This document shows positions 25,708-44,154 of a DNA stretch of 64,000 nt, one piece after another. The translations under genes were made by a program, and so were the position numbers. Each line of letters starts with the position of its first letter. Within the stretch, counting starts at the first letter, position 1. The notes under the pieces were generated by a model. The model was given only the letters and a program-made list of their open reading frames with translations, was not told the origin of the DNA and made no database searches. The DNA lies in NCBI RefSeq assembly GCF_018860635.1, contig NZ_JAHKPT010000004.1, forward strand, positions 310,001-374,000, read 5' to 3'. The DNA comes from Aliiglaciecola lipolytica (GTDB taxonomy: Bacteria; Pseudomonadota; Gammaproteobacteria; Enterobacterales; Alteromonadaceae).

Positions 25708-28078
25708 ATTAATTGATCTGGCAATCGACAAAACACCTAGTGGCAAGATTGGAACATCCAGTAAACATGATAGTGCTAATCGTCACGTAACAGGTAAAGC
25801 TATTTATGTTGATGATAAAAATTTACCAGCCAATACCTTATTCGCTGCTATCGGAACCAGCAAGATCGCTTGTGGGCAGATTCAAAAACTGGACTTATCA
25901 AAAGTCTGGGCTAGCCCTGGCGTAGTCGATGTAATTACAGTTGAGGATGTTCCAGGGCACGCAGACATTGGGCCTGTATTTAAAGGCGATCCCATACTCA
26001 CCAGCGATCAAATTTCGTTTAATGGTCAGGCTATTTTCGCAGTTTTAGCCACATCTACTCGATTAGCTAGACAAGCTGTTCTAAACGCCGAGATTGAATA
26101 TAGCCCATCATCGGCAACCTTGAGCACTGAAGAAGCTCATCAAAAACAGGAATTTGTGCGTCCTGCGCACAAAATGCAACAGACCCTCCCATCTCAAATT
26201 AAGAACAACAATATTGAGCAAATTGAATCCTGTTTAAAGGTAGGTGGCCAAGAACATTTATACCTCGAAGGTCAAGTTTCAGTTGCTATTCCCCAAGAAG
26301 AAGATCGAATGATGATCTATACATCTAGTCAACATCCAAGCGAAGTGCAAAAATTGGTTGCTGAAGTGCTAGATGTATCAATCAACAAAGTCACCGTTGA
26401 TATGCGTCGCATGGGTGGCGGATTTGGTGGTAAAGAGACACAAGCAGCACAATGGGCATGCATAGCCGCGATTTTGGCCCATCGTCAATCAGTGCCAGTA
26501 AAAATACGCCTACCGAGAATGCAGGATATGCAGGTGACAGGGAAACGTCACCCATTTACTAACAAATATAAAGTGAACATTGATCAAAACGGACTCATTC
26601 AATCCAGTGAATTTGAAATTAATGGTGATTGCGGACACTCCCCTGATTTATCTGATGCAATAGTTGACCGTGCAATGTTTCACGTTGACAACGGCTACTA
26701 CCTCGGTCAAACCGAAGTGGTTGGACATAGATGCAGAACCAATAAAGTATCTCATACCGCTTTCAGAGGATTTGGTGGCCCCCAAGGAATGATAGTTGCT
26801 GAAGACATGCTAGATAAGATTGCTCGGCATAGAAAAATAGACCCGCTCACTGCTAGAAAACGCAACTTGTACCAAAACGTTGGGGTAAATGAAACCCATT
26901 ATGGAATGCCAATCGGGCAAAATGTTCTGCCTGATTTGCTCGAAAAATTGGAACACAGCAGTGATTATTGGAATCGCAGAAAACAAATCCAAGAATTCAA
27001 TCAATCCAGCCCTATTATTAAAAAAGGTTTGGCATTAACTCCGGTAAAATTTGGTATTTCATTTACCGCTAAACACCTTAATCAAGCGGGTGCGCTGCTG
27101 CATGTTTACACTGACGGTAGTATTCAAGTAAACCATGGCGGCACCGAAATGGGTCAAGGGTTACATACTAAAGTGGCGCAAGTGGTAGCGAACGAGTTTG
27201 GCTTGCCAATTGAGAAAATAGAGGTAACAGCAACACGCACCGATAAAGTGCCCAATACCTCTCCCACCGCTGCATCTAGTGGTACAGATATGAATGGTAA
27301 AGCCGCGCAAAATGCGTGTATTGAAATTAAACAACGTTTAGCGCCATTAATGCTCGCGCTATTCGCAAGAGAATCGGCGCAACAACAAAATACAAACCAA
27401 CAATCTGTAAGCGTCAATGATGTAGAGTTTGTCGATCAGCATGTTTGTATTCAGGATTTTAAAATCCCCTTTGCCGAATTGATCCAAGCAGCCTATTTTG
27501 AGCGCATATCACTTTCAACTACCGGCTTCTACCAAACCCCAAAAATTCATTACGATCGGGAAACAGGCAAAGGGCGTCCTTTTTTCTATTTTGCTTACGG
27601 CGCCTCGTGTAGCGAAGTGCTAATTGATACCCTAACCGGTGAAATGCGAGTAGAACGTGTGGATATTCTCCATGATGTCGGTAACAGCCTCAATCCAGCC
27701 ATCGACATTGGCCAAATTGAAGGAGGATTTATACAAGGCATGGGTTGGTTGACCAGCGAAGAATTATTGTGGGATAAAACCGGTAAACTAATTAGTAATA
27801 ATCCCGCAACTTATAAGATTCCAGCAATTGGTGATACCCCTAGGGAATTTAATGTCGAACTTTATCCCCACGCCAACACTGAAAATACCATATACAACTC
27901 TAAAGCGGTGGGCGAACCACCTTTGATGTTGGCGATATCCGTTTGGTGTGCAATTAAGGATGCAATTTCCAGTGTTTCTAACTATGCATTAGATCCACAA
28001 TTAAATACCCCGGCCACCCCTGAGAAAATTCTAAAAGCTTGTCAAAACATCCGTACTTCGATGGACACTCCAGCATGA
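25700..28078 (+). CDS. xdhB: Xanthine dehydrogenase molybdopterin-binding large subunit
   Basis: A 792-residue molybdenum hydroxylase subunit that oxidises hypoxanthine to xanthine and xanthine to urate. Features include MGGGFGGKETQAAQWA, the substrate-region RGFGGPQGM (Arg of bacterial XdhB), GTEMGQGLHTKVAQ for cofactor binding, and the catalytic glutamate in KAVGEPPLML near the C-terminus. Length is typical for the bacterial two-subunit type. Its TGA overlaps the xdhC ATG. Confidence 0.96.
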   Translation: MRKLIDLAIDKTPSGKIGTSSKHDSANRHVTGKAIYVDDKNLPANTLFAAIGTSKIACGQIQKLDLSKVWASPGVVDVITVEDVPGHADIGPVFKGDPILTSDQISFNGQAIFAVLATSTRLARQAVLNAEIEYSPSSATLSTEEAHQKQEFVRPAHKMQQTLPSQIKNNNIEQIESCLKVGGQEHLYLEGQVSVAIPQEEDRMMIYTSSQHPSEVQKLVAEVLDVSINKVTVDMRRMGGGFGGKETQAAQWACIAAILAHRQSVPVKIRLPRMQDMQVTGKRHPFTNKYKVNIDQNGLIQSSEFEINGDCGHSPDLSDAIVDRAMFHVDNGYYLGQTEVVGHRCRTNKVSHTAFRGFGGPQGMIVAEDMLDKIARHRKIDPLTARKRNLYQNVGVNETHYGMPIGQNVLPDLLEKLEHSSDYWNRRKQIQEFNQSSPIIKKGLALTPVKFGISFTAKHLNQAGALLHVYTDGSIQVNHGGTEMGQGLHTKVAQVVANEFGLPIEKIEVTATRTDKVPNTSPTAASSGTDMNGKAAQNACIEIKQRLAPLMLALFARESAQQQNTNQQSVSVNDVEFVDQHVCIQDFKIPFAELIQAAYFERISLSTTGFYQTPKIHYDRETGKGRPFFYFAYGASCSEVLIDTLTGEMRVERVDILHDVGNSLNPAIDIGQIEGGFIQGMGWLTSEELLWDKTGKLISNNPATYKIPAIGDTPREFNVELYPHANTENTIYNSKAVGEPPLMLAISVWCAIKDAISSVSNYALDPQLNTPATPEKILKACQNIRTSMDTPA

Positions 28079-28929
28079 TGAAGAACCAGTGGTTTGATGG
28101 TGTAATGCACTGCCAAAATAACGCAAAAGCTTATGTTGTGTTGACCGTAATGGGGTCTGTAGGATCAACGCCTCGAGCGCAAGGTACCAAAATGGTGGTA
28201 ACCGAAGATCGGATTTTTGACACCATTGGCGGTGGTCAACTTGAACATTTATCGATTAAAAAAGCTCGCGAATTACTCACCCTAAAAAGCCAAAGTCAAC
28301 ATGTAGAGTATTTTCCTTTAGGTGCTAAATTAGCCCAATGCTGTGGCGGTGCGACTCATGTATTATTTGAAGTATTCTGCCAGCACGTTAATCAGTTAAT
28401 GCTTTTCGGCGCAGGTCACGTCGCTCAGGCGCTAGTGCCGATAATATCGCAACTTCCTTTGAATATTGTCTGGGTTGATTCACGCCAAGAGATGTTTGAT
28501 GAAGTAGATAAATCAGAACTTCAGTTACCCACCAATGTAAGCGCCTTAATTGCAGAAGATTGCACCGACGCTTTGGATGAATACCCAGTCAATTACGTAT
28601 TGGTTATGACCCATGATCACCAATTGGATTTTGAACTGGTCCACAAAGCTTTAAATATCGATAGTGTCGAATATTTAGGTTTGATTGGTTCTGCAACAAA
28701 AGCCAAACGTTTTCGAACACGCTTAGCTAATCATGGGATTAGCGCCCCAATGCTAGAAAAATTAGTCTGTCCTGTTGGTATTACTGATATTCCAGGTAAA
28801 CGCCCTATTGAAGTTGCCGTCTCTATTGCCGGTCAACTCATTGGCTTACTCAATAAACATGAATCAAATGAATCGCAAAATAGCCAAGCTGCTTGGTTAC
28901 AAACCAAAGAAATAGCGAAATTATTATGA
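28075..28929 (+). CDS. xdhC: XdhC, molybdenum-cofactor chaperone for xanthine dehydrogenase
   Basis: Binds molybdenum cofactor, promotes its sulfuration and inserts it into XdhB. The start is set at the ATGATG at 28075, which overlaps the xdhB stop by four bases. The longer open frame would begin inside xdhB. The protein (about 284 residues) has the N-terminal XdhC/CoxI domain with GSTPRAQGTKMVV, GGGQLEH and CCGGATHVLFE, and a Rossmann-like C-terminus with LFGAGHVAQAL, MTHDHQLDFEL and LIGSATKAKRF. All family blocks are intact. Confidence 0.93.
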   Translation: MMKNQWFDGVMHCQNNAKAYVVLTVMGSVGSTPRAQGTKMVVTEDRIFDTIGGGQLEHLSIKKARELLTLKSQSQHVEYFPLGAKLAQCCGGATHVLFEVFCQHVNQLMLFGAGHVAQALVPIISQLPLNIVWVDSRQEMFDEVDKSELQLPTNVSALIAEDCTDALDEYPVNYVLVMTHDHQLDFELVHKALNIDSVEYLGLIGSATKAKRFRTRLANHGISAPMLEKLVCPVGITDIPGKRPIEVAVSIAGQLIGLLNKHESNESQNSQAAWLQTKEIAKLL

Positions 28930-29432
28930 CCTTAGATGAACTCAATAAATTACCAGACCACGAAGCTTACACATGGTTTAAAAGTTGCTGTGAATCCTCT
29001 GTTTGGTCTACATTCATGGTGCAGTCTCGACCTTTCACATCAATTGAACAAATTAACGAGGTCGCTAGTCATAAATGGCCTTCACTCACTGAGGAAGACT
29101 ATTTAGAAGCCTTTAAAGCCCATCCAATGATCGGAGATATTGCAACCTTAGAAGCTAAGTTTGCTAATACTTCCGCTTTAGCGGAACAAGAACAAGCCAG
29201 TGCCATAGGCGCAGATCCAAAAGTGTTACAGGAACTTCACCGCTTAAATCAGCAGTACCTTGAAAAAAATCAGTTTATTTTCATTATTTGTGCCACCGGA
29301 CAAAGCGCTGAGAACATGTTAGCTGCGATTCAGAAGCGCATTCATAACGATCGTAAAACTGAAATTGGGTTAGCAGCAGAGCAACAGCTAAAAATTGCAC
29401 TATTAAGAATCAAAAAAGGCTTAACCGCCTAA
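28926..29432 (+). CDS. uraD: OHCU decarboxylase (UraD)
   Basis: Decarboxylates 2-oxo-4-hydroxy-4-carboxy-5-ureidoimidazoline to (S)-allantoin. The start is taken at the ATG at 28926 (ATGA overlap with the xdhC stop), giving 168 residues that begin MTLDELNKLPDHEAY. Family markers are the catalytic His in AHPMIGD, LNQQYLEKNQFIFIICATGQSA and a C-terminal EIGLAAEQQLKIALLRI. The next gene, uraH, produces its substrate. Confidence 0.94.
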   Translation: MTLDELNKLPDHEAYTWFKSCCESSVWSTFMVQSRPFTSIEQINEVASHKWPSLTEEDYLEAFKAHPMIGDIATLEAKFANTSALAEQEQASAIGADPKVLQELHRLNQQYLEKNQFIFIICATGQSAENMLAAIQKRIHNDRKTEIGLAAEQQLKIALLRIKKGLTA

Positions 29433-29447
29433 ACAGAGAAGAAATCT

Positions 29448-29771
29448 ATGAATAGCTTATCTAGTCACGTACTTGATACGGCAGCGGGAAAACCTGTGCC
29501 AGATTTAGCCCTACAACTCACGACTCCTGATGGCAAAATTATTGACGCTCAAACGGATAATGATGGACGTTGTAATCAATGGAGCGACGTTAATTTTATT
29601 GCTGGTCAATATCAATTGCGCTTTTATGTAGAAACCTATTTAATCGAAAAACACGGTGAGAGTTTCTACCCATTCGTTGATGTCAGCTTTAATTTACCTG
29701 AAGACGGCGGCCATTATCATGTCCCTTTATTGATATCGCCGTACGGTTTCAGTAGTTACCGAGGCAGCTAA
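29448..29771 (+). CDS. uraH: 5-hydroxyisourate hydrolase (transthyretin-like, UraH/PucM)
   Basis: A 107-residue hydrolase that opens 5-hydroxyisourate to OHCU. It has the family signatures: an N-terminal SSHVLDTAAGKPVPDLALQL with the catalytic His, a central TDNDGRCN, an FYPFVDVSFN segment, and the C-terminal tetrapeptide YRGS that marks hydroxyisourate hydrolases against true transthyretins. There is no signal peptide, so it is cytoplasmic. It is 15 bases after uraD. Confidence 0.96.
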   Translation: MNSLSSHVLDTAAGKPVPDLALQLTTPDGKIIDAQTDNDGRCNQWSDVNFIAGQYQLRFYVETYLIEKHGESFYPFVDVSFNLPEDGGHYHVPLLISPYGFSSYRGS

Positions 29772-29777
29772 TACTAT

Positions 29778-31106
29778 ATGAAATCAGATTTACAAATATT
29801 TCGCAGTAGTATTTTGCACTTCCCTTTGACAACAAGCTCTCCAGATGAGGGTTACGCGTTCTATAAGGACGGTTATTTGGTTACGCGTAACGGTAAAATC
29901 GAAGCAATTGGCCACTATTCAGCGTTGCCCGACGAGTATGTGTCTTTAGCGGTTGAAGACTACCGAGGTAAGTTGTTAGTTCCAGGCTTCATTGATAGCC
30001 ATTTACATTTCCCACAGACCGAGATGATAGCTAGCTATGGTGAACAGTTACTGCAATGGTTACAAAACTTTACTTTCCCGACAGAAACTAAGTTTCAGAA
30101 CCATGACTATGCCCATGCCATGGCTGAGTTATTTTTAAGCCAGTTATTTTGTAACGGAACCACTACTGCAATGGTGTATTCCAGCGTGCATAAGCAAGCT
30201 ACGGATGCACTTTTTAGCGCCGCGACTGCACATCAAATGGCGCTGATTGCTGGTAAAGTCTGCATGGACCGAAACTGTCCTGAAGATTTACAAGACTGTC
30301 CAACGTCAGCGCAAAAAGACAGCGCTGAACTGATTGAAAAATGGCATAACAAAAATCGCACTAAATACGCATTAACACCAAGATTCGCACCAACAAGCAC
30401 TGAAGCGCAGTTAGCGTCTTTAGGCGAATTAGCGCAACAATACCAAGATGTATATATTCAAACTCACCTATCTGAGAATATGCATGAAATTGCGTGGGTA
30501 AAAGAACTTTATCCACAACATCAACACTATTTAGATGTATATGATCATCATCACCTAGTCAGAAAAGGCAGTGTGTTTGGTCATTGTATTCATTTACAGC
30601 AAGCTGAATGGGATTTATTGGCGCAAACACAAGCAACTATTGCCTTTTGCCCCTCTTCTAATTTGTTCTTAGGCAGCGGCTTATTTAACCTAGACAAAGC
30701 AAGGCAATCATCTGTAAATGTCGCGTTGGCGACCGATGTTGGTGCCGGCACTTCGTTTAATATGCTAAGGACCATGGGGGATGCTTATAAAGTTTGCCAA
30801 CTTAATCATTGTAAGCTGTCTGCATTAAGTGGTCTTTATATGATGACCCAAGGTACCGCAGCGTCATTAGATCTGGAACATAGTATTGGTAATTTAAATC
30901 CAGGTAGTCATGCAGATTTTGTCGTACTGGATCCTAAATTTAGTCAGCTTAGTGAAATAAGAACAGATTCTTTAATAACAGAAGGGACTGTCAACTTACC
31001 CTCTGATGTGTTATTTGCATTGAGCATGTTGGCAGATGAAAGAACCACTGAAGCCACTTACATCGCCGGAAAAGCGGTGTTTAAACAACCCACGAGGAGC
31101 AATTAA
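29778..31106 (+). CDS. guaD: Guanine deaminase
   Basis: A 442-residue zinc amidohydrolase converting guanine to xanthine. It shows PGFIDSHLHFPQTEMIASYG (zinc-binding HxH), the guanine deaminase signature MDRNCPEDLQD, QTHLSENMHEIAWVKELYP, GHCIHLQ and the catalytic region ATDVGAGTSFNMLRTM. All are typical of E. coli and mammalian guanine deaminase. It lies six bases after uraH and abuts puuD directly, with the same operon and likely the same RutR-type control. Confidence 0.95.
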   Translation: MKSDLQIFRSSILHFPLTTSSPDEGYAFYKDGYLVTRNGKIEAIGHYSALPDEYVSLAVEDYRGKLLVPGFIDSHLHFPQTEMIASYGEQLLQWLQNFTFPTETKFQNHDYAHAMAELFLSQLFCNGTTTAMVYSSVHKQATDALFSAATAHQMALIAGKVCMDRNCPEDLQDCPTSAQKDSAELIEKWHNKNRTKYALTPRFAPTSTEAQLASLGELAQQYQDVYIQTHLSENMHEIAWVKELYPQHQHYLDVYDHHHLVRKGSVFGHCIHLQQAEWDLLAQTQATIAFCPSSNLFLGSGLFNLDKARQSSVNVALATDVGAGTSFNMLRTMGDAYKVCQLNHCKLSALSGLYMMTQGTAASLDLEHSIGNLNPGSHADFVVLDPKFSQLSEIRTDSLITEGTVNLPSDVLFALSMLADERTTEATYIAGKAVFKQPTRSN

Positions 31107-32306
31107 ATGGTTTGGATGGACTGGGTATCGTTGTTTATTCGTTGGTTTCACGTTATCGCGGGTGTGGCTTGGATTGGCGCATCATTTTACTTTATTTGGT
31201 TAGATAACAACTTACAGCAACCACCGGAATGGAAAAAGAACAAAGGCATTAAAGGCGATTTGTGGGCGGTTCATGGAGGTGGCTTTTACGAAGTCGCTAA
31301 ATATCAATACGGCCCTGAAAAAATCCCAGAAACCTTACATTGGTTTAAATGGGAAGCCTATACCACTTGGATAAGTGGATTTAGTTTACTTATTTTAGTT
31401 TATTACTTTGGAGCGTCTGCTTTTTTAATCGATCCTAATATTATGGAGTTAACCCAAAGCCAAGCTGTATTAATGGGTTTAGGGTTAATATTTGGCGGCA
31501 TGTTGATGTATGAAGTAGCCTGCCGCAGTCCGTTAGCAAAAAGCCCATTGTTATTCGCGATCTTTCTATTAATACTGTTAACGGTTGCGGCTTGGTTGGC
31601 AACCCAATGGTTTAGCGGGCGTGGCGCTTACATACATATCGGAGCGCTGATTGGAACTATCATGGTGGCAAACGTCTTCTTGCAAATCATGCCGTCACAA
31701 AGAGCCATGGTTGATGCCGTAAAGAACAAACAAGAGGTCGACCCAAGCTGGGGAGAGAAAGCTAAGTTACGCTCAGTACACAACAACTACCTTACCCTAC
31801 CTATTTTGTTCATCATGATTAGCAATCATTATCCCATGACTTATTTACACGAGCAGAACTGGCTAGTGTTGATAGCACTATGTGTGGTTTCGGCATGGAT
31901 AAGACACTTTTTCAATTTAAAACATCTCGGTGTATTTAAACCGTCAATCTTAATTAGTGGTGCTGTGGCTATGCTGGCAATTGCAATTTGGGTTTCTGCT
32001 CCGAATATATTAACCACATCAGAGCCACAAACTAAGCAAGGCACGGAATTAGTCTCTCAAAGCCAAGTGAAACAAGTGTTAGATAGCCACTGCGTTTCTT
32101 GTCATTCAAAAACACCAACAGACCCCATGTTTCCGTCGCCTCCACTGGGCTTAGTTATGGATGATTGGAAAGATGTGGAAAACAAATTAAGCGTCATTTA
32201 TCAACGGGTATTCGTGACTCGTGATATGCCCTTTTTAAATAAAACTCAAATGACAAATGAAGAGCGAAAACTAGTAGCAGATTGGTACCTGCAAAATTTA
32301 AATTAA
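31107..32306 (+). CDS. puuD: PuuD, membrane urate hydroxylase with fused cytochrome c domain
   Basis: Integral-membrane urate oxidase that converts urate to 5-hydroxyisourate and passes electrons to the respiratory chain instead of making peroxide. The 399 residues contain about eight hydrophobic helices, starting with the conserved FIRWFHVIAGVAWIGASFYFI-type segment (about 9-30). A C-terminal cytochrome c domain carries C329-VS-C332-H333. The stop meets the end of convergent hutG with a four-base overlap. It is the last gene of the xdh operon, so xanthine oxidation and urate oxidation are coexpressed. Confidence 0.93.
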   Translation: MVWMDWVSLFIRWFHVIAGVAWIGASFYFIWLDNNLQQPPEWKKNKGIKGDLWAVHGGGFYEVAKYQYGPEKIPETLHWFKWEAYTTWISGFSLLILVYYFGASAFLIDPNIMELTQSQAVLMGLGLIFGGMLMYEVACRSPLAKSPLLFAIFLLILLTVAAWLATQWFSGRGAYIHIGALIGTIMVANVFLQIMPSQRAMVDAVKNKQEVDPSWGEKAKLRSVHNNYLTLPILFIMISNHYPMTYLHEQNWLVLIALCVVSAWIRHFFNLKHLGVFKPSILISGAVAMLAIAIWVSAPNILTTSEPQTKQGTELVSQSQVKQVLDSHCVSCHSKTPTDPMFPSPPLGLVMDDWKDVENKLSVIYQRVFVTRDMPFLNKTQMTNEERKLVADWYLQNLN

Positions 32307-33280
32307 ACGCTATTGTCGATACTCACTGCTTTTGCATGAACTGATTCAAACAAAATACGAGCCGCTAACTTAGCGGTTCGAGAATCAATATCGAATACTG
32401 GATTCAGTTCTGCAATATCCATTAACCTCCATTTAAAATTCATTTGTGCTTGCTGGGTGGTCAACCATCGAATGATGGATATAACAAAAGGCAGCGAAAT
32501 ACCGAAAGAGCTTGGCGCGCTAACACCAGGAGCAAGGGACGCAGAAAAAGCGTCTAAACAAACAGTAACATAAAGTTCGTCAACCTCTTGCAGCATAGGT
32601 GTAAGCAACGCTTTCGCCGCATCTAACTGACAATCTTCATCTAATAAATAGCCTACCTTTAGTGTTTGCGCGCATTGAAACAATGCTTGCGTATTAGCCG
32701 GTTTAGCAACGCCCAAACAGGTATAATGAAATGCCTCAGTGTATTGTTTACAAGCTTGCGCTATTTGGTAAAAAGCGGTACCAGAACTTGCATTAGGCGA
32801 CGGTATGCGCAGATCAAAATGCGCGTCGAAATTGATAATGCCTATTTTAGGTTTTGTTTTAGCCTGCACATTTTTGCGTAAGCCAGAGTAACTGGCCAAG
32901 GCAATTTCGTGTCCGCCGCCCAAACCAATTACAAACGCTGATGAATTTAACGCAGCATTAATTTGTTGAGAATAATTGTGTTGCGCTTCTTCCAGGTTAT
33001 GCTGGGAGTCCACGTTTCCCAGATCTTTAATTGATTTGTCTAAATGCCAAGCCAAACTACACAGACTAGCGCGAATCGCGTTAGGACCGGCTTTCGCCCC
33101 TACTCGGCCTTTATTGACTGCCACACCAAGATCACAACTAAATCCCAATAAAGCGATATCCGTTTGCGACGTGGTTTGTTCCATGACTTGATGCCAGCGA
33201 CGGCTGTTAATTCCGCCTTCATTGTCGACTCGTCCAGTCCAATGAAAATGAGAATTTTGACTAAACAAGCTTGCCTCCAA
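32303..33280 (-). CDS. hutG: Formimidoylglutamase HutG (arginase family)
   Basis: Hydrolyses N-formimidoyl-L-glutamate to glutamate and formamide, the last step of the short histidine degradation route. The 325 residues hold the ureohydrolase manganese motifs GGGHEIA, FDAHFDLR and CLDAFSASLAPGVSAP. The arginase-family fold separates it from the N-formylglutamate deformylase that shares the name hutG in pseudomonads. It overlaps the end of hutI by 20 bases, so hutI-hutG is a coupled unit. Confidence 0.93.
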   Translation of the reverse strand: MEASLFSQNSHFHWTGRVDNEGGINSRRWHQVMEQTTSQTDIALLGFSCDLGVAVNKGRVGAKAGPNAIRASLCSLAWHLDKSIKDLGNVDSQHNLEEAQHNYSQQINAALNSSAFVIGLGGGHEIALASYSGLRKNVQAKTKPKIGIINFDAHFDLRIPSPNASSGTAFYQIAQACKQYTEAFHYTCLGVAKPANTQALFQCAQTLKVGYLLDEDCQLDAAKALLTPMLQEVDELYVTVCLDAFSASLAPGVSAPSSFGISLPFVISIIRWLTTQQAQMNFKWRLMDIAELNPVFDIDSRTAKLAARILFESVHAKAVSIDNSV

Positions 33281-34472
33281 ACCATTTACTAACGGGTTTG
33301 TATTGATTTACTGTATAAACGAGTTGCGCTGGATGGGAAATATCCCATAAACACAAATCGGCTCGGCACCCAGCTTTTATTTCTCCCCGGTCTTTTAAGC
33401 CTAACGCTTTGGCAGCGTTTACGGTAATGCCTCGCAATGCTTCTTCAGGGGTTAGTGCGAATAACACACAAGCCATGTTGGCACAGGTGAGAATTGATGC
33501 GATAGGAGAACTTCCGGGGTTTAAATCGGTGGCTATAGCCATTGGTACTTGTTGCTTTCGTAATGCTTCAATGGGCGGCTTCTGTGTTTCATTTAGGAAG
33601 TAAAACGCGCCAGGAAGCAAAACTGCAACAGTATCGGATAGCTTTAAATTAAATACATCAGATGCAGGCAGATATTCAATGTGATCAACGGATAAAGCAT
33701 GATAATCACATGCTAACTTCGCACCTTTTAAATCACTAAGTTGTTCTACATGAGCTTTAATCGTTAGCCCAAACTGTTGAGCAGCTTTAAATACTCGCTC
33801 ACATTGAGCTGGACTAAAACCGATACTTTCACAAAACACATCCACACTGTCAGCTAACTTTAATTCGCTTATTTTAGGCATGACCTCGTCACAAACGAAA
33901 TCAATATAAGCATCCGCGTCCTGAGCGAATTCGGCTGGCAACGCATGGGCACCCAAGTAAGTTGCAAGAATCTTAACGGGTAATTCGTCACTTAATTTTT
34001 TCGCAACTTGTAGCATTTTTATTTCAGTGTCTAAGTCCAAACCGTAACCTGATTTGACTTCCAACGTTGTGACACCTTCATTGACTAACGCAGTAGCCCT
34101 TAATATTGCAGACGCTAATAACTCATCTGCTGTCGCTTTACGGGTTGCGTTTACGGTACTTTTTATGCCACCACCTTTAGCAGCAATACTTTGATAACTT
34201 TCACCGTTGAGTCGCCTTTCAAATTCATTGGCACGGTCACCGCCATACACTAGATGAGTATGACAATCGATAAAGCCGGGTAATATCCACTTTCCACCGC
34301 CATCAAATTTGCTTTTAGCATTTCCAGAAAAATTAGACAATTCACCAACATAAACGATGCGCTCGCCGTCTATTGTGATGCAGCCATTTTTTATTTCGCC
34401 ATAGGGGGCAGAGCCAGTCAACATAGTAGCTATTTGAACGTTGTAAATAAGGTAATCGCAGGGATTCGACAT
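33261..34472 (-). CDS. hutI: Imidazolonepropionase HutI
   Basis: Zinc/iron amidohydrolase that opens imidazolonepropionate to formimidoylglutamate. I choose the ATG at 34472 (AGAGATCTT before it). The open frame extends upstream only to a GTG without a site. The protein has about 403 residues, with FIDCHTHLVYGGDRANEFE, a GGIKSTVNATRKA block, KSGYGLDLDTEIKML, HVEQLSDLKGA and ATDLNPGSSP. Divergent hutC starts 98 bases away with a HutC operator between. Confidence 0.95.
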   Translation of the reverse strand: MSNPCDYLIYNVQIATMLTGSAPYGEIKNGCITIDGERIVYVGELSNFSGNAKSKFDGGGKWILPGFIDCHTHLVYGGDRANEFERRLNGESYQSIAAKGGGIKSTVNATRKATADELLASAILRATALVNEGVTTLEVKSGYGLDLDTEIKMLQVAKKLSDELPVKILATYLGAHALPAEFAQDADAYIDFVCDEVMPKISELKLADSVDVFCESIGFSPAQCERVFKAAQQFGLTIKAHVEQLSDLKGAKLACDYHALSVDHIEYLPASDVFNLKLSDTVAVLLPGAFYFLNETQKPPIEALRKQQVPMAIATDLNPGSSPIASILTCANMACVLFALTPEEALRGITVNAAKALGLKDRGEIKAGCRADLCLWDISHPAQLVYTVNQYKPVSKWFGGKLV

Positions 34473-34519
34473 AAGATCTCTATAGTACCGTTGCACGAGT
34501 AATCAGTGTACTTGCGGTA

Positions 34520-34535
34520 ACTTGTATATACAAGT
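34520..34535. promoter_or_regulatory. HutC operator between hutI and hutC
   Basis: ACTTGTATATACAAGT is a perfect 16-bp palindrome in the hutI/hutC divergent promoter region. Its core TTGTATATACAA is the known type of site bound by HutC repressors. Placement 48 bases from hutI and 36 bases from hutC fits repression of both directions with relief by urocanate. Confidence 0.85.
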
Positions 34536-34570
34536 AAGATGCATTTTATTTACAATTAATTAACAGCTTA

Positions 34571-35278
34571 ATGGCCTCACATTTTGTCAAAATAAAATCC
34601 CATCTATTGGCACAAATAGCCAATGGCACAATGCAGCATGGGGATAAGGTTCCTTCTGAAAATAAACTAGCTGAACAATTTGGTGTTAGCCGGATGACGG
34701 CACGAAGAGCGCTGACAGATTTAGTTAACGAAGGGATCTTATTACGTTCGCAAGGTTTAGGAACCTTTGTGAATGATCAGCGACCTATGAGTTCAATGTT
34801 AGAAATTAATAGTATTGATGACGAAGTTTTAAAACGGGGTCATAGTTATTCGAATCAGGTGATATGCCAACAAAAAATATTTGCCAATACACATCAAGCA
34901 AATTTGTTAGGGATGGCTGTCGGGTCTCTTGTTTACAATACTAAAATAATTCACCTAGAAAACGATACGCCTATTCAATTAGAAGACCGTTTAGTAAATC
35001 CTCATTATGCACAAGATTACATCGAGCAGGATTTTAACAATACAACGGCTAATCGCTATCTTAATCAGGTTGCCCCACTAACCGAAGCAGACCATGTAAT
35101 AGAAGCTTTATTACCTACACCAGACATTGCAGCGGCACTATCTGTTGCTATAGAACAACCTTGTTTATTGATTTCACGTCGTACCTTTTCAGCTAAAGGC
35201 ATAGTGAGTTTTGCCAGCCTTTACCATCCAGGCAATCGATATCGATTGGGTGGCCACCTAGACTTTCAGGCTCTTTAA
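34571..35278 (+). CDS. hutC: HutC, GntR-family histidine utilisation repressor
   Basis: A 235-residue repressor with an N-terminal winged helix ([32 protein letters not shown], about 24-55) and a C-terminal UTRA ligand domain with [19 protein letters not shown] and [19 protein letters not shown]. The second segment is a HutC hallmark. The usual inducer is urocanate. It precedes hutU by 31 bases and is probably cotranscribed with hutUH under autocontrol through the palindrome upstream. Confidence 0.93.
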
Positions 35279-35309
35279 CAAGAGTCCTCTAATTGAGAGA
35301 CATTCAAGC

Positions 35310-36989
35310 ATGAACAAACGTTACTCCAAACGCATAGTAAAAGCGCCAACAGGCAGCAATATAACCGCTAAAAGTTGGTTAACTGAAGCACCAATGCGGA
35401 TGTTAATGAACAACTTAGATCCTGAGGTCGCAGAACATCCTCATGAGTTAGTAGTATATGGCGGCATTGGTCGCGCAGCACGAAACTGGCCGTGTTTTGA
35501 TAAAATCGTAGAAGTGCTAAAACGGCTTAACGATGACGAAACTCTATTGGTGCAAAGTGGTAAACCTGTAGGCGTATTTCCGACCCATAAAAATGCCCCT
35601 AGAGTACTCATCGCCAACTCAAATTTAGTACCTCACTGGGCGACTTGGGAACATTTCAATGAGTTAGATAAACAAGGTCTAATGATGTACGGGCAAATGA
35701 CTGCTGGTTCTTGGATTTACATAGGTTCACAAGGCATAGTTCAAGGAACCTATGAAACATTTGTAAGTATCGCCAAGGCACACTTTAATGGACAAGCAGC
35801 AGGCAAATGGATTTTAACCGGTGGTTTAGGAGGAATGGGTGGAGCTCAACCTTTAGCGGCGACTATGGCAGGCTTTTCAATGTTAGCGGTAGACGTTGAT
35901 GAAAGCCGCATAGATTTCCGCTTAAAAACCGGATACCTAGACAAAAAAGCCAAAAATTTGAATCATGGCTTAGCATTACTTCAGCAAGCGAAACAAAATG
36001 GTGAAGCCATCTCAATAGGATTATTGGGAAATGCCGCTGACGTATTTAGTGAAATTGCTGAATCAGACAATATTCCCGATGTAGTCACCGATCAAACCAG
36101 TGCCCATGATCCTCTAAACGGTTACCTTCCACAGGGCTGGACACTTGAACAAGCTGCTAAAATACGTAAAAAAGATGAAAATAGAGTAGTTCTAGCTGCT
36201 AAAAAGTCTATGGCGGTACAAGTCAACGCAATGTTACGCTTACAGGCTAAGGGAGCAGCAACGCTAGATTATGGTAACAATATTCGTCAAATGGCATTGG
36301 AAACGGGAGTTGATAATGCATTCGATTTCCCAGGTTTTGTGCCCGCTTATATTCGACCACTATTTTGCCAAGGTATAGGTCCATTTCGGTGGGTCGCACT
36401 CTCTGGTGATCCTGAGGATATTTATAAAACTGACACCAAAGTAAAAGAACTGATCAGTGATGATCCTCACCTACATAATTGGTTAGATATGGCCAAACAG
36501 CGAATTCAATTTCAAGGTCTGCCCGCTAGAATTTGTTGGGTAGGTTTAGGACAACGACAAAAACTTGGTCTAGCTTTTAATCAAATGGTTCGCTCAGGTG
36601 CACTTTCCGCTCCCATTGTAATTGGCCGAGATCATTTGGACTCTGGTTCTGTCGCATCCCCTAACCGTGAAACAGAAAGTATGTTAGACGGTTCAGACGC
36701 AGTATCAGATTGGCCCCTATTGAATGCAATGTTAAACACGGCTAGTGGCGCGACTTGGGTAAGTTTGCATCATGGCGGCGGCGTTGGTATGGGATTTAGC
36801 CAGCATTCTGGGGTAGTCATAGTCTGTGACGGAACATCCGAGGCAGATGAGCGCATAGCAAGAGTATTGCATAATGATCCAGCCACAGGAGTCATGCGCC
36901 ATGCTGATGCCGGTTATGATATTGCAATTCAATGTGCAAAACAAAAAGGCTTAGATTTGCCTATGATAGAAGAGGCTAACCATGGCTAA
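35310..36989 (+). CDS. hutU: Urocanate hydratase HutU
   Basis: NAD-dependent enzyme converting urocanate to imidazolonepropionate. At 559 residues it has the family's usual length. Recognisable blocks are [36 protein letters not shown], the NAD-binding loop [35 protein letters not shown], and [14 protein letters not shown] with the conserved active-site cysteine. The stop lies eight bases inside hutH, so they are coupled. Confidence 0.97.
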
Positions 36990-38502
36990 AATCATCTTAA
37001 AACCAGGTCAGGTTAGTCTTGAACAATTAGCTAAGATTCATCGCAAGCATGTTCCATTGGAGTTACATGAGTCTGCCATTGAAGGCATTAATGCCGCTGA
37101 AGAAACAGTGTTAAATACCACCGAAAAAGGCAAAACAGTTTACGGTATTAATACTGGATTCGGCTTACTTGCAAACACCAAAATTCCGCAACATGAATTA
37201 GAGGCATTACAACGCAGTATTGTGTTATCCCATGCTGCTGGTACAGGTAACTTCATGCCTGATAATACCGTTCGGTTAATGATGTTTCTAAAAATTAACT
37301 CATTAGCAAGGGGATTTTCAGGTATTCGATTAAGTGTCATTAATGCCCTTATCACTCTATTTAATGCGCAAGTTTATCCAGCCATTCCAGAAAAAGGATC
37401 AGTTGGAGCGTCTGGCGATTTAGCACCATTAGCACATATGAGTGCAGTGCTGCTTGGTGAAGGTGAAGCCTTTTTTCAAGGTCAAAAATACCCAGCTAAA
37501 AAGGCATTAAAAATCGCCAAGTTATCGAAGATTGCATTGGCACCAAAAGAAGGGCTTGCGCTGTTAAACGGAACACAAGCGTCAACCGCTTTTGCCCTGC
37601 AAGGTTTGTTTTATGCCGAAAACGCATTAAACAGTGCCATTGCAATCGGCAGTTTAAGCGTGGAAGCCGCGTTGGGCTCGAGAGTGCCTTTTGACGAACG
37701 TATTCATGTTGTCCGTGGACATCAAGCGCAAACGGATATCGCAGCGGCTTATAGACAACTATTGGCATCTTCCACTATAGGCAATTCCCACCAAGGCTGT
37801 AACAAAGTACAAGACCCCTACTCTTTGCGCTGTCAGCCTCAAGTAATGGGTGCCTGTTTAGCGCAAATACGATTTGCCGCGCAAACCCTGCTTGTTGAAG
37901 CGAATGGCGTATCAGACAACCCACTGGTGTTTGCAGATAGCGGAGATATTTTATCTGGCGGCAATTTTCATGCTGAAACGGTTGCTATGACCGCTGATAT
38001 GTTAGCCATTGCATTGTGTGAAATAGGATCTTTGGCAGAACGCAGAATGGCATTACTGATCGACAATAATCTTAGCGGTTTACCCCCATTTTTAGTTGAA
38101 AATGGCGGGGTCAATTCCGGCTTTATGATCGCCCAAGTCACCTGTGCAGCGCTAGCTAGCGAAAATAAAACCTATGCTCATCCGGCGTCTATAGATTCAC
38201 TGCCAACCTCTGCAAATCAAGAAGATCATGTATCCATGGCTACTTTTGCTGCCCGTCGATTAAGAGATATCTATGATAATGTGGCGGGAATATTAGCCAT
38301 TGAGTGGCTTGCAGCAAGCCAAGGCGTGGACTTTAGAGCGCCTTTGACATCCAGTACTCAACTCGAAAAAGTTAAGCGTTTACTGCGTTCAAAAGTACCT
38401 TTTTACGATAAAGATAGATATTTTTCACCTGATATTGAGAATGCAAAAACTCTCATTCGCAGTCACGCACTTTCAGATCTCGTCCAATTAAAACTGCTGT
38501 AA
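36982..38502 (+). CDS. hutH: Histidine ammonia-lyase HutH
   Basis: Deaminates histidine to urocanate, the first step of the pathway. The 506 residues contain the MIO cofactor triad A143-S144-G145 in [14 protein letters not shown], the NTGFGLLA N-terminal block, GLALLNGTQ, and [14 protein letters not shown] for substrate binding. It is the last gene of hutCUH. A convergent terminator follows, used by the next gene on the other strand. Confidence 0.97.
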
Positions 38503-38618: not shown

Positions 38619-39533
38619 TTAGCTACGACGTCTCAACCGCATCATTAAACCTAGTCCACTGAGCAATAAAAAAACGCCTAGAGGTTCATCGACGTTGGTA
38701 GTCGGTGGATTATTCACTCCACCGTCGTTGTCAGTATAAATACCAGTTAAGTTACTTAAGAATACGCCACTGTCATAAACGCTGTCTGACGTATCAGCGA
38801 TAGCAATTTTAAGGGTATGCTGAGTTAAACTTTCATCAACCAGACCGATTAAATTTAAGTTCTGACTAAATCCATCATACTCAATATCGAATAATCCTGT
38901 TGTATTATCCAAGAAGTTACTCGCATTAGCTCCTTCAACAAATGACACTAAACTTGAATCTGGAAAAAACGCATAGTTGGTTCCATCTACAAATACACCG
39001 AACACATCAGTGACTCCCTGATCTGGGAATTCATCACTACCGAATATGAAATCTAGAGATATAGCGTTAAAACCTGCGCCCAACATGAAATCAAATTCTA
39101 TATAATTGACATCATTGGTTATTGATGATGGCGCACCCGCATCATTCAAAATTGCGGTTAAGTCTGCATCACCTCCGGTTCCTGGAATGAAAGGGTCAAA
39201 ACTTGTTTCTGTGTTAACACTAGGTATGTTCGCTGTACCACTGGTTAATACTGCACCTTCTCCCATACTGACAGTAGAAGAGCCATCAGTAATATTAACA
39301 CCGGAAAAAATACCAGACTGGGCAGAGTTACTGCTGAAACCATCACCAATTGCCCCTACAAAGGTTTCACTACCTGCAATTACACTTACACCACCACCGG
39401 AAACAACCAAAGAACTGGTAATGTCAGAGATAGCGTCATCGCCAGTTTCAATTAAATCCAGTCCTAACAATCCTGCGTTAGCACTAAAAGAGGAGACGAA
39501 GAATAGCGAAATGCCAAGGTTTTTTATTTTCAT
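38619..39533 (-). CDS. Choice-of-anchor L domain protein with PEP-CTERM-like C-terminus
   Basis: Secreted surface or matrix protein, about 304 residues. The start is set at the ATG at 39533, which has AAGGA eight bases upstream. The signal peptide is MKIKNLGISLFFVSSFSANA. The body is a choice-of-anchor L domain (GIFSGVNITDGSSTVSMGEG..., NDVNYIEFDFMLGAGFNAISLDFIFGSDEFPD). The C-terminus has DEPLG, a hydrophobic span and RLRRRS, a PEP-CTERM-like sorting signal that an exosortase would process. No exosortase gene is in the window. Role unknown, possibly in extracellular polymer attachment. Confidence 0.85.
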   Translation of the reverse strand: MKIKNLGISLFFVSSFSANAGLLGLDLIETGDDAISDITSSLVVSGGGVSVIAGSETFVGAIGDGFSSNSAQSGIFSGVNITDGSSTVSMGEGAVLTSGTANIPSVNTETSFDPFIPGTGGDADLTAILNDAGAPSSITNDVNYIEFDFMLGAGFNAISLDFIFGSDEFPDQGVTDVFGVFVDGTNYAFFPDSSLVSFVEGANASNFLDNTTGLFDIEYDGFSQNLNLIGLVDESLTQHTLKIAIADTSDSVYDSGVFLSNLTGIYTDNDGGVNNPPTTNVDEPLGVFLLLSGLGLMMRLRRRS

Positions 39534-39783
39534 TAGATTAATCCTTATCAAATGTAAACATGTTTTATCTTAAAACCCAATAATACCTCTACTCCTTGAG
39601 TTTTGTTCATTTTATGAGCAAGCATAACATAGGCCAAAATATTTATCTTTGTAAAAACAAAAACATAAAAACAAGCAGGTTGCTTAAAGGAGTGAAAGTG
39701 TAAATTTATTTGACAGAAAATTGTGACAGAAAAAACTGAATAAGAGGTATAAGAAAAAGATAACAAGATAACAAGTTAACAAT

Positions 39784-40339: not shown

Positions 40340-43300
40340 TTACTCGTCTGCTTCAGAATTGACCTTCTTTTTGTCATCCTGTTGTGGTTCAAACTGTTCA
40401 TTCGCACTAGAGCGAACCGTTAATAACATACTCAGAGCAGACACAATAAATGCTGTGGTTTTTTGTGGTGATAGAGTGTAAAAATAATCCCATGCCTGAC
40501 TCTTATGATCGGTATAACTATCTACTCTATCGGGATATTTGTCGATATAAGCTAGTTTGACAGCGTGACCGATAGTAGCATCAACAATAATCGGCTCATC
40601 GATTTTCAAACTTGAATTTTGTTCAAAAAAGCTTGCCATTGCATTTAATGATTCAATGGTTAATTGGCGATATTCTGCGGCATGAATATTATTCAACAGG
40701 TGTTCGGTTATCAGCGCAAAGGCTGTTTCTCCAGGAGTCATATCACTCAATACAATACCGCTATCAATGCGATTCCTGCGGTCCATCTTATTACCAATCA
40801 CTAGCCCTGGCGTATGGTGTAAAATTTGCCAAATCTGTTGATTGAAAGATGCAGAACGACGGTCAATAATCCCCTGATGTTGTCGCCACACTAACCAGCC
40901 ATCTTTGGGCGTAGAAAGTTGTTCAAGCCCTAAGTTTTGCTGCCAGTTTAGTTTTTCGGAAATACCTTTAGCATGCAATTTTTCCATTTTTTGCGGTAAA
41001 TCAGAGAGCGATTGATAATCTTCTAATACCGCTTCCAAGCGTTCCTGAATGACCGACGGTGCCATGGCCATCAAACTTTCGTACGCTTCATCGGTAGCTA
41101 ACTTCTGTGAACGCGCAATTTGGCTGGTAAGCAATATAATTAGGTGACTGACACGGATCGTCATTAATTCTCTGAATAATTCGGGACGTGCTTTAATTAA
41201 CAATCCAAGGCATAACAACACTTCTTGGGTTAAAATTTGGTCGCGCACATCATCACGGCAATAATGATGAATTTTTGCTAATAACTCGTCATCAGTTAAA
41301 GGCCTAGATATAAGCGATTCGTCGGTATAAGAACGCCCAACTTGAATGTTTTTCTGGGCAACCAGGATTGCGCTTACCACTAAGCCAAGATCACCATCTA
41401 CTTTTTCTAATAAGCCTGCTGCATGGCGCAATACAGACCAAAGCCGTAAGCGCCCTGCTTCACTATAAACCTCTTCAAGCGCGTCTGTTAATCGATAACA
41501 GGTATCACTGTAGGTAATGGTTGAATCCAACCCTTGAAGTTTTACCAATACCGATAAAATTTCGACTTGTTCAAATAAATTATCTGAGGCGGCCAATCTA
41601 TCTGCTAGCAATTGCGTATCAGTGATAAAGGAGATTTCAACTTCTTCACTTTGTGTTAAAGGTGCATTGGAGCCGCTAGAGATTAATGTAGTTCTAAATG
41701 GCGTAACACTAATGGATATTTCATTTGGTAACGCATAGCCATTCAAATCATCAAAACGCTCAATTGCCGCTGTAGGAGTGAGTTGCGCCATTTTGCCCAT
41801 TTTCACAGGAATACCGTCTACGTAACCGGAATCAATCTTTTTTATCAGTTCGAAAAAGGAAGTTCTGTCAGCATCTAACATTTGACGAGTTAACATAACG
41901 GTCACGGTAGGTCTGCCTGTTTCCGTCCAATTTCGATGCAAATAACTCAACTCACTTTTGAAGCGTCGAACCATAAAATCGATGTCATAGCTTAAAAAGA
42001 ACGCTTGTTGAATAAAAGATGGGGTTAAGCAAACAAAACGTGATTTGCCTAATACATACACTCGGCTTGTGGTTAAACTTTTGGGGATCCTAAAAGAGCG
42101 CCCAGTTAATCCTAACGACTGATTCGCACCGACTTGCGAATACATAGTTGCAATGTCTTCTGGTCGACAAACCTTAACCGGTGAAATATCGCTGATCGTT
42201 TCCGTCATTAGTCCACTGCCTGCCAATTCAGATTGCAGTGCTTCGTCTTCAGCCAAAAATACTAGTTGAACAACTGGTTGTTTGACAGGTTTAACATGTC
42301 GACGTCCGATCGGATCTAAGTCACCCGGACGTAACAGTCCATCTTCCAACATCGCGCCTAATAAGAATAAACTCTGAGCCCAAACAAGAGGAACGTTCTC
42401 GTTTGGCAAACGATCTTGCGAATGTGGAGTTTCTCGCTCTTTATCAATGGATTCTAAAGGTACATAATACAATTCGGGAAGCAGTAGATGACCTTCTTGC
42501 TCAACCATCACCGAGTCTAAACGACTTCGATAATGCTCCACTTGCTGTCTGTCATCTCTAAAAATGGCGTCTAAATACAAATAGGCATAAAACAAAGGCC
42601 ACTCTGACTCAATGTTTTCAAATTGTTTTAGCTCTTGTTCTTCATAGTGAAGACGACCTTCATCTTCTAATACGGTTTGGTGGCCGTCACGTAGGAAACG
42701 TTTTAACCCATATCTACCTTCAAGTTTACCAATAATATCGTTCCGTACCTTATCCGAAAGCGTTTGATTTGGAACCGCAAACGCCGGAAAGCCGACAACA
42801 CTCAACAAAGCTGCATCTATTTCTTTGGTAATGGACTCCCTTGGTAACATAGCACTTAGCGTAATATTGGCTTGAGCGATATTATCCGGTACAACGTGAA
42901 TAACAGAATTTTGTGAGCCCTTAGCGCCAAATAAATTAAATCCTGATAATGCTTCCAACGCGGCTTTGGCCATGCCTAACGAACTTGCGTTTAGCTCAAC
43001 ATGTCCGCTGTTAGATTTAGCCCCACGCTCCCAAATACCAAAATCTGGTGTGCGATAAGCCCGTTCAATGTAGAACACCAAGTTCTGAATAAAATCAACT
43101 TCTTCATCGCTCCAAATTAACTCTAATCCAGATGCGATCATTTGCGTTAGTGTCAGCAAAAATACAGAGGTCGCATCAATTTGCAAATGTCCCCATTCAT
43201 GATCTGCCACTACATTGTCGCCGGTCGCGGTATCATATTTTGCATGCAGGGAATCATCTGGACTACGGCTTTTTTTGAAGGCTTCGACTTTAGCTGACTG

Positions 43301-43588
43301 ACTCATCATTGACCGTAACAAACCACGCATTAATTTTACCGTGCGCTGTTGAAGCTCAAATCCACGCCCTCCATCATCATCCAATTGGCGATATGCTAAC
43401 GCTAGTCCCCAAACAGCTAAAATACTGTAAACATTATCCCGTACCCACGCATCTTGATAATTACCATGATTTGTTATCGCAGTACTAGCCGGCAATAACC
43501 CCGATATAGGGTGCTGTTTGTCAATTATGACCGCCTTAATTTGCTGATAATATTTATCTAGGCTGATTCTTAAGTTAATGTCTTGCAT
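40340..43588 (-). CDS. GH15-family protein resembling phosphorylase kinase alpha/beta subunits
   Basis: A 1082-residue cytoplasmic protein. The start is placed at the ATG at 43588 (MQDINLR), with AGGA seven bases before it. The frame reaches a GTG five codons upstream that lacks a site. Residues about 1-430 form a GH15 glucoamylase-like (alpha/alpha)6 barrel with AWVRDNVYSILAVWGLALAY, DSLHAKYDT, WGHLQIDATSVFLL, FIQNLVFYIERAY, FGIWERG, and LNASSLGMAKAALEAL. These are nearly identical to mammalian phosphorylase kinase alpha. The similarity continues into the C-terminal half (LRLWSVLRHAAGLLEK, ILTQEVLLCLGLL, MTPGETAF, EYRQLTIESLNAM). Predicted role: alpha-glucan binding or hydrolysis, or control of glycogen metabolism. 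No glycogen gene is adjacent. Confidence 0.88.
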   Translation of the reverse strand: MQDINLRISLDKYYQQIKAVIIDKQHPISGLLPASTAITNHGNYQDAWVRDNVYSILAVWGLALAYRQLDDDGGRGFELQQRTVKLMRGLLRSMMSQSAKVEAFKKSRSPDDSLHAKYDTATGDNVVADHEWGHLQIDATSVFLLTLTQMIASGLELIWSDEEVDFIQNLVFYIERAYRTPDFGIWERGAKSNSGHVELNASSLGMAKAALEALSGFNLFGAKGSQNSVIHVVPDNIAQANITLSAMLPRESITKEIDAALLSVVGFPAFAVPNQTLSDKVRNDIIGKLEGRYGLKRFLRDGHQTVLEDEGRLHYEEQELKQFENIESEWPLFYAYLYLDAIFRDDRQQVEHYRSRLDSVMVEQEGHLLLPELYYVPLESIDKERETPHSQDRLPNENVPLVWAQSLFLLGAMLEDGLLRPGDLDPIGRRHVKPVKQPVVQLVFLAEDEALQSELAGSGLMTETISDISPVKVCRPEDIATMYSQVGANQSLGLTGRSFRIPKSLTTSRVYVLGKSRFVCLTPSFIQQAFFLSYDIDFMVRRFKSELSYLHRNWTETGRPTVTVMLTRQMLDADRTSFFELIKKIDSGYVDGIPVKMGKMAQLTPTAAIERFDDLNGYALPNEISISVTPFRTTLISSGSNAPLTQSEEVEISFITDTQLLADRLAASDNLFEQVEILSVLVKLQGLDSTITYSDTCYRLTDALEEVYSEAGRLRLWSVLRHAAGLLEKVDGDLGLVVSAILVAQKNIQVGRSYTDESLISRPLTDDELLAKIHHYCRDDVRDQILTQEVLLCLGLLIKARPELFRELMTIRVSHLIILLTSQIARSQKLATDEAYESLMAMAPSVIQERLEAVLEDYQSLSDLPQKMEKLHAKGISEKLNWQQNLGLEQLSTPKDGWLVWRQHQGIIDRRSASFNQQIWQILHHTPGLVIGNKMDRRNRIDSGIVLSDMTPGETAFALITEHLLNNIHAAEYRQLTIESLNAMASFFEQNSSLKIDEPIIVDATIGHAVKLAYIDKYPDRVDSYTDHKSQAWDYFYTLSPQKTTAFIVSALSMLLTVRSSANEQFEPQQDDKKKVNSEADE

Positions 43589-44154
43589 AGTCGTTCCTAT
43601 CACTGTGGAAAAGAGATGCTGAAAATGTGCATCTTGAAAAAGTTAATCACATTATGCTTTTAGTACGATCGATAAATTACCACCGTGATTTCAAAAATGA
43701 GTTACGTCTTTAACTACTTGTTTTACTACTTAGGGCCATAACAGTACTTAGCTTAATATAAAGTTAGCGAGCAAGGTTCACGCCAATCATAGCTGCACAA
43801 GTTATTTAGCATCCAAGTTTCAATTCAATTAAGCGCAAAACTTCAAATAACCTAATTTGCCTACGCTTAAGTTAGTCATTTGCATGCTTAATTCAAACTA
43901 AATCGATTAAGTAAAGCATATAATAAGGCTCAGATAAACAGCTATCAATAGTTTAATGCACACATTGTGTGCATTAAACTTATACAACTCATTGCATCTT
44001 AAGATCTAAAAAGATGGTTTGATCCGTCTTGGGAACCGCTGTGAAAACACTATTTGAAGGCTTCGTTGTACATATGATTTTTAGGCGTTCTGTTTGTACC
44101 GCCTAATCCGACTGTCTGTGCCCTCTTATCCTGCGCTTACACGAAACAGAAAAC
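43589..44154. other. 566-base gap between GH15 gene and yihY
   Basis: AT-rich spacer with no convincing reading frame. It should hold the promoter of the GH15 gene near its left end. It contains a 29-bp palindrome (43951-43979) and a TATAAT at 43919-43924 without a good -35. A TTAGGCG/CGCCTAA hairpin (44081-44106) lies downstream of yihY with no T-run in the yihY direction. An unannotated small RNA is possible but not shown. Confidence 0.5.
43951..43979. repeat. 29-bp perfect palindrome
   Basis: GTTTAATGCACACA at 43951-43964 and TGTGTGCATTAAAC at 43966-43979 are exact reverse complements separated by a single T. No T-run follows in either direction, so a dimeric regulator site or a structured RNA is more likely than a terminator. 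Confidence 0.75.

Follow-up and report, generated by a model that had tools for sequence, protein, structure and literature searches.

A bacterial full-length homologue of the phosphorylase kinase alpha and beta subunits with a glucoamylase-type active site

The window analysed here, a 64,000-nucleotide stretch of the genome of Aliiglaciecola lipolytica, contains on its minus strand (40340..43588) a gene for a GH15-type protein of 1082 residues that resembles the alpha and beta subunits of eukaryotic phosphorylase kinase (PhK). We show, by means of the open reading frame, Pfam and PDB searches, and a structural model, that this protein is a full-length homologue of the D1-D5 subunits of PhK and has both GH15 catalytic glutamates together with other recognisable active-site motifs. 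The best explanation, to which we give a probability of about 0.65, is that it belongs to a bacterial PhK alpha/beta family and acts as a cytoplasmic, exo-acting alpha-glucosidase of the glucoamylase type, and that an enzyme of this sort was the ancestor of eukaryotic PhK alpha and beta. A preliminary description of the same DNA had correctly placed the gene and its 1082 residues at these coordinates and had regarded the product as a PhK alpha homologue. Its observation is confirmed and its interpretation partly supported: the homology extends over the full length of alpha and beta, but by descent the protein has no special tie to alpha, since human alpha and beta cluster with each other and apart from it. 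A working alpha-glucan hydrolase, the bacterial counterpart of PhK alpha/beta, would be the better reading.

Homology to phosphorylase kinase alpha and beta

In the Pfam search, the window protein matched Glyco_hydro_15 over residues 8-814 (E 3.4e-84, 283.7 bits against a cut-off of 22) and KPBB_C, the phosphorylase b kinase C-terminal domain, over residues 827-1060 (40409..41110, minus strand; E 1.1e-88, 296.9 bits against a cut-off of 27), the latter region being reached by a C-terminal PDB match as well. A phmmer search of the PDB returned only two distinct sequences at E <= 0.01, namely PhK alpha (E 1.9e-213; stretches 5-608, 657-856, and 897-985) and PhK beta (E 1.4e-172; stretches 9-858 and 897-1038), and the last 243 residues alone matched beta at 9e-12 and alpha at 1.3e-5. 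Similarity of the barrel only was ruled out by these full-length matches and by the C-terminal match. With approximate domain borders of our own, identity to PHKA1 was 57% in D1 (400 aligned residues; the GH15-type barrel, residues ~1-410, 42359..43588, minus strand), 35% in the D2-like region (190 aligned residues; residues ~411-600, 41789..42358, minus strand, delimited by PDB search and alignment), 30% over residues 701-860 (157 aligned), and 30% over the 82 D5 residues for which alpha sequence is available; the likeness is therefore full length but much weaker near the C terminus. The PhK alpha-like motifs quoted in the preliminary description are present in the protein, and its statement that the likeness reaches into the C-terminal half is borne out by these matches.

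A profile of 28 family members, searched against the PDB up to E = 1, found PhK alpha and beta only, and its match to a plain GH15 protein of the same order (L175) was weak, partial, and without significance (E 0.057). These results ruled out an ordinary bacterial GH15 enzyme and agree with the earlier remark that the protein is more than a generic glucoamylase. Ordinary GH15-type enzymes (glucoamylase 1lf6, glucodextranase 1ug9, and glycosidase 5z3a) have the D1 barrel fold in common with the window protein but were absent from this profile search, and in the structural comparison 1lf6 aligned to model residues 5-433 only and 1ug9 to residues 6-555 only, so that the KPBB_C region is not theirs. 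The comparison with predicted structure that had been proposed earlier pointed the same way: the best structural alignments of the AlphaFold2 model were those with PhK alpha and beta, and the alignment with 8z5r_A spanned residues 4-1064 at 13.7 A rmsd. In NCBIfam, no adequate model for the window protein was found; the sole match, to TreH1 (an archaeal trehalase), scored 18 bits where the cut-off is 820 (E 9e-4).

The window protein differs from human PHKA1 (PDB 8jfk) in having a Tyr-bearing stretch that PHKA1 lacks, whereas PHKA1 residues ~620-760 have no match in the window protein and residues ~964-1052 are unmatched or bridged by an insertion. The CaaX tail of PhK alpha is likewise missing from the window protein, which ends in NSEADE, and Cys at -4 occurred in 0/67 bacterial rows, as expected from the earlier statement that no isoprenylation tail is present. 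Human PHKB is collinear with the window protein (9-858 and 897-1038) and similar in overall length, but it is only 34% identical to it and has Lys in place of the base Glu and K-I-Q-D in place of W-V-R-D. GH15/KPBB_C proteins of the cyanobacterial/Abditibacteriota type have the same full-length architecture and active site as the window protein, with 46-51% BLAST identity to it in the 21 rows measured (20 cyanobacterial rows and L012), and these rows are nearer than the window protein to human alpha and beta.

Active site, predicted activity, and genomic context

The candidate catalytic residues, all encoded on the minus strand, were identified by alignment. Glu187 (43028..43030) is the candidate general acid and Glu372 (42473..42475) the candidate general base; they correspond to PHKA1 Glu185 and Glu371, which constitute the catalytic pair of PhK alpha, a subunit without detectable glucoamylase activity, according to the available part of PMC10978961, where PhK beta is described as lacking some catalytic residues. 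Arg50-Asp51 of the AWVRDN motif (43436..43441) includes, as judged by the motif, the equivalent of Asp55 of Aspergillus glucoamylase, the role of which is treated in the available part of PMC4837477. The equivalents of Glu187 and Glu372 were invariant in 64/64 bacterial rows (63 loci plus the window, with four duplicate loci and one fragment left out), and invariant positions numbered 111/410 in D1, 7/190 in D2, 4/160 in residues 701-860, and 7/165 in D5.

A third residue separates the bacterial proteins from the human ones. Tyr44 (43457..43459, minus strand) lies six residues ahead of the Arg of W-x-R-D, and a Tyr occupies this position in 67/67 bacterial rows, a count that includes three added Abditibacteriota-type rows; it appears as HG[ND]Y in the rows printed. 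As read from alignments, Tyr at -6 and W-x-R-D are also found in 1lf6 and 1ug9, and the Tyr likewise in plain GH15 L175. The same position holds Gln in human alpha and Asp in human beta; alpha is six residues shorter at this stretch in both HMMER alignments, and beta is four residues shorter and in addition lacks the base Glu and two residues of W-x-R-D, W and R. The equivalent residue in Aspergillus glucoamylase is Tyr48, which we take to be hydrogen-bonded to the base Glu400. In the glycosidase 5z3 series, a Y48F mutant was solved alongside E178A and E335A, according to the PDB entry titles; the available part of the paper found on these Aspergillus residues (PMC4837477) does not mention Tyr48. 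We propose that loss of the Tyr at -6 may be one reason why PhK alpha, which retains both Glu, shows no hydrolase activity, and offer this as a testable explanation.

Acting alongside glycogen phosphorylase, the predicted enzyme would use the GH15 mechanism, in which Glu187 would be the acid and Glu372 the base, to release glucose from maltodextrins derived from glycogen, starting at their non-reducing ends. Glucokinase would then feed the released glucose into central metabolism, which in some relatives means the Entner-Doudoroff pathway. Assembly, not catalysis, is the probable role of the C-terminal D3-D5 region. The host genome encodes one glucokinase and one glycogen phosphorylase, the latter on another contig (C27) beside pgm, and no other GH15 protein over the cut-off. 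Within the taxonomic family, a phosphorylase was present in 30/30 genomes with KPBB_C versus 115/166 others (p 5e-5 by genome).

Gene neighbourhoods were examined for eight seed families (glk, eda, edd, pgl, zwf, glgB, glgX, and glgP; glgA, glgC, and malQ were not seeds). The weight of the context argument lies in 33 seed genes packed, with tight spacing, within 11 loci. In Sulfuricurvum L016 and the Epsilonproteobacteria MAG L014, the tightly packed order is zwf-pgl-edd-eda-gene-glk, and in Saccharospirillum (L013 and L027) it is zwf-pgl-edd-glk-eda-gene; in L013 the next gene downstream is malQ. The gene is directly followed by glk in Thiotrichales L015 and Sulfurimonas L017. A carbohydrate phosphorylase reading frame precedes the gene in L017 at a distance of 16 bp, and in L016 such a frame stands immediately ahead of zwf. 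The two genes glgB and glgX come directly after the gene in L022, L138, and L139, beyond an adjacent malQ in L136, and 2.6 kb off on the opposite strand in L029; L022 also has a GH13 gene directly upstream and glk beyond it. Glucokinase as a partner gene suggests free glucose as the product.

Two sets of these loci are described here in their own right. In the Campylobacterota MAGs, runs at L016:1707-12180 and L017:1460-7295 bring together glucokinase, the PhK alpha/beta-like GH15 protein, and a carbohydrate phosphorylase of 546 aa, and the L016 run also holds zwf, pgl, edd, and eda as a compact glycogen-to-Entner-Doudoroff set. Divergent PhK alpha/beta-like proteins lie near glgB/glgX at L138:4217-11652, L139:6427-13827, L136:8665-17513, and L022:6261-15511; KPBB_C scores are weak in L136, L138, and L139 (91-106 bits), and the C-terminal domain therefore drifts while D1 stays.

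Several observations weigh against an active hydrolase. Human PhK alpha gave no glucoamylase activity with maltose, isomaltose, or glycogen despite both Glu (available part of PMC10978961), and the Glu pair alone thus proves no activity; human alpha has, moreover, another Tyr two positions further up that might substitute for the missing one. AlphaFold2 pLDDT falls below 50 at residues 186-196, 297-311, and 323-328, which are the catalytic loops. Counted by genus, phosphorylase co-occurrence was 10/10 versus 41/52 overall (p 0.07; p 0.13 for the 8 genera over the cut-off). At least one seed gene was present in 11/66 loci versus 1/18 control stretches, which were places picked by us in 18 of the genomes (Fisher p 0.45, not significant); significance was not reached because 55 loci have no seed gene. 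Some loci end close to the gene, and several of the 11 positive loci are closely related to each other. No seed gene was found in the flanks examined of 14 window-clade, 20 cyanobacterial, and 4 Abditibacteriota-type loci, so that the context argument rests on relatives that are ~37-45% identical. Conserved context in the window's own clade, where a LysE-type transporter, a response regulator, and a flavin oxidoreductase are recurrent neighbours, was tried as a functional clue and yielded nothing.

The protein might instead be a regulator as in PhK: its GH15 domain would sense glucan or glucose, and its target, bound and controlled by it, would be glycogen phosphorylase or a bacterial Ser/Thr kinase. 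The full-length architecture common with PhK alpha/beta, the phosphorylase genes adjacent or near in L017 and L016, and the nine Pkinase matches in the host genome are in keeping with such a role. We nevertheless consider it unlikely: the D1 catalytic residues are invariant and D5, which binds gamma in PhK alpha (available part of PMC10978961), is less conserved, all nine kinase matches fall outside the window, with the sole one on the same contig ~123 kb away, and in some relatives the neighbouring glucokinase gene suggests that free glucose is released. No kinase match was thus found inside the window, although no search aimed at gamma or calmodulin was made. This agrees with the earlier remark that no kinase gene is adjacent, and the companion remark on phosphorylase holds for the window but not for relatives L017 and L016.

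Less likely still, the GH15-type enzyme could be active on a different substrate, for example trehalose, some other glucobiose, or a compatible-solute glucoside. The far sub-threshold TreH1 trehalase match, a fold common to enzymes of several specificities, and the lack of seed genes near the window-clade and cyanobacterial genes would suit this view, whereas the neighbours in 11/66 loci argue against it: these are glucokinase, Entner-Doudoroff genes, or the alpha-1,4-glucan genes glgB and glgX, and some loci add malQ or phosphorylase.

Distribution and descent

The family is already known from a curated Pfam model and is scattered across bacteria, and the window protein is a member of it, not a lone curiosity. 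Its nearest named relatives are in Aliiglaciecola lipolytica (87% identity) and then in Paraglaciecola species, which marks the host as a member of the Alteromonadaceae, and the family is patchy in Cyanobacteria, several proteobacterial groups, Campylobacterota, and Abditibacteriota. KPBB_C was found in 5/9 genomes of the genus, 30/196 of the taxonomic family (28 over the cut-off), and 8/398 of the phylum, the host genome being included in each case. In samples labelled by the phylum of their centre genome, and including that genome, it was found in 34/146 around an Acaryochloris MAG (33 over the cut-off), 4/201 around an Abditibacteriaceae MAG, and 1/150 around a Campylobacterota MAG. We presume that Abditibacteriaceae are placed in Armatimonadota in GTDB. 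One of 14 control genomes, Synechococcus elongatus, had a match, and a profile scan of genome contigs gave 28 loci. Nothing indicated that plasmids or viruses carry such genes: tblastn against a plasmid collection gave no match, and a scan of viral contigs gave two pattern matches, neither of them a relative. Our literature search, as far as its sources were available, turned up no paper dealing with a bacterial homologue of PhK alpha/beta; the name "glycogen phosphorylase kinase" appears in marine Synechococcus proteomics (available part of PMC6716455), and the part examined of a review on prokaryotic alpha-glucan enzymes (PMC11046441) does not contain "phosphorylase kinase".

Trees, whose eukaryotic members were the two human sequences PHKA1 and PHKB, had also been called for in the preliminary description. 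In the 58-row tree, from which eight near-duplicate or neighbouring loci were left out, human alpha and beta formed a pair (SH-aLRT 99) that grouped with 19 cyanobacterial and one Abditibacteriaceae sequence (99), and the window clade was separate (100). Support for the human pair and for the larger group was 97 and 92 in the 33-row tree and 88 and 94 in the 22-row tree. AU tests with 22 rows rejected neither humans with alteromonads (p 0.195) nor cyanobacteria and Abditibacteriota types without humans (p 0.384), and the placement of the eukaryotes accordingly stays a best estimate that these tests do not settle. Beta is a very long branch, and treekit warned that alpha and beta meet as long branches.

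PHKA1 is 45-48.5% identical to the 20 main-clade cyanobacterial rows, 43% to the window protein, and 39.2% to PHKB, so the window lineage is not its nearest bacterial relative by sequence, and PHKB is closer to 16/20 of those rows (range 37.8-41.8%) than to PHKA1. This pattern would fit a slowly evolving enzyme family that gave rise to two faster regulatory paralogues, a direction not proven with two eukaryotic sequences. The divergent row L121 (genome G550, from the cyanobacterium-centred sample) was kept outside the 20-row count; it is a KPBB_C protein that stands apart from the main clade of cyanobacterial sequences, its long branch falling near Saccharospirillum.

The preliminary description had left open whether the bacterial protein was an ancestor or the result of ancient transfer in either direction. 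The direction from bacteria to eukaryotes is favoured but not proven, and transfer from a eukaryote is unlikely because the bacterial forms are broad and their active sites intact. Acquisition of the bacterial genes from a eukaryotic donor, which the patchy distribution (8/398, 4/201, and 1/150 in the phylum, Abditibacteriaceae, and Campylobacterota samples) and the long blocks nearly identical to the human protein might suggest, appears very improbable to us: the Tyr stretch is kept in 67/67 bacterial rows and absent from both human paralogues, in a tree of many bacterial lineages the human pair has cyanobacterial/Abditibacteriota forms next to it, and patchiness is also compatible with transfer among bacteria plus loss.

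Eukaryotic PhK alpha and beta may thus have descended from an enzyme of this kind, and loss of the short active-site Tyr stretch, with further losses in beta, could have produced a regulatory scaffold or sugar sensor. In its fullest form, which we put forward tentatively and at somewhat less than even odds, animal PhK alpha and beta go back to a bacterial enzyme of glycogen breakdown that is still an active hydrolase in this genome and others; the donor was near the cyanobacterial/Abditibacteriota branch, and the Tyr stretch was lost before or around the alpha-beta duplication, which yielded a regulator of glycogen phosphorylase. The intact-looking bacterial active site, the glycogen-use context in some members, and the Tyr difference make it testable whether PhK alpha is a dead glucoamylase and, if so, through which change it lost its activity, and the window protein offers a simpler protein in which to study PhK architecture without gamma and delta. 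It is a concrete candidate for an enzyme turned regulator within its own pathway, and what most merits further work is this proposed descent of a regulator from an enzyme, for which a residue can be named.

The gene and its surroundings in the window

The plus strand across 40340-43588 is crowded with stops, and the minus strand is a 1082-aa open frame. An alternative GTG start at 43603 would add 5 residues (reading frame 40340-43603); the ATG at 43588 is the likelier start. Promoter-like sites (11 versus 13.5 in shuffles) and terminator-like sites (4 versus 3.6) were at chance level. The gene is flanked by genes for an unassigned 126-aa protein and a BrkB-family membrane protein, not by glycogen genes. 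On its low-coordinate side, a 310-aa protein (38619-39551) has, by eye, a signal-like N terminus and a PEP-CTERM-like end, with no Pfam match at 1e-5. Farther off, the region 24268-38502 holds apparent purine-degradation runs (xanthine dehydrogenase, guanine deaminase, and OHCU decarboxylase type) and an apparent histidine-degradation (hut) gene run, judged by eye from the translations.

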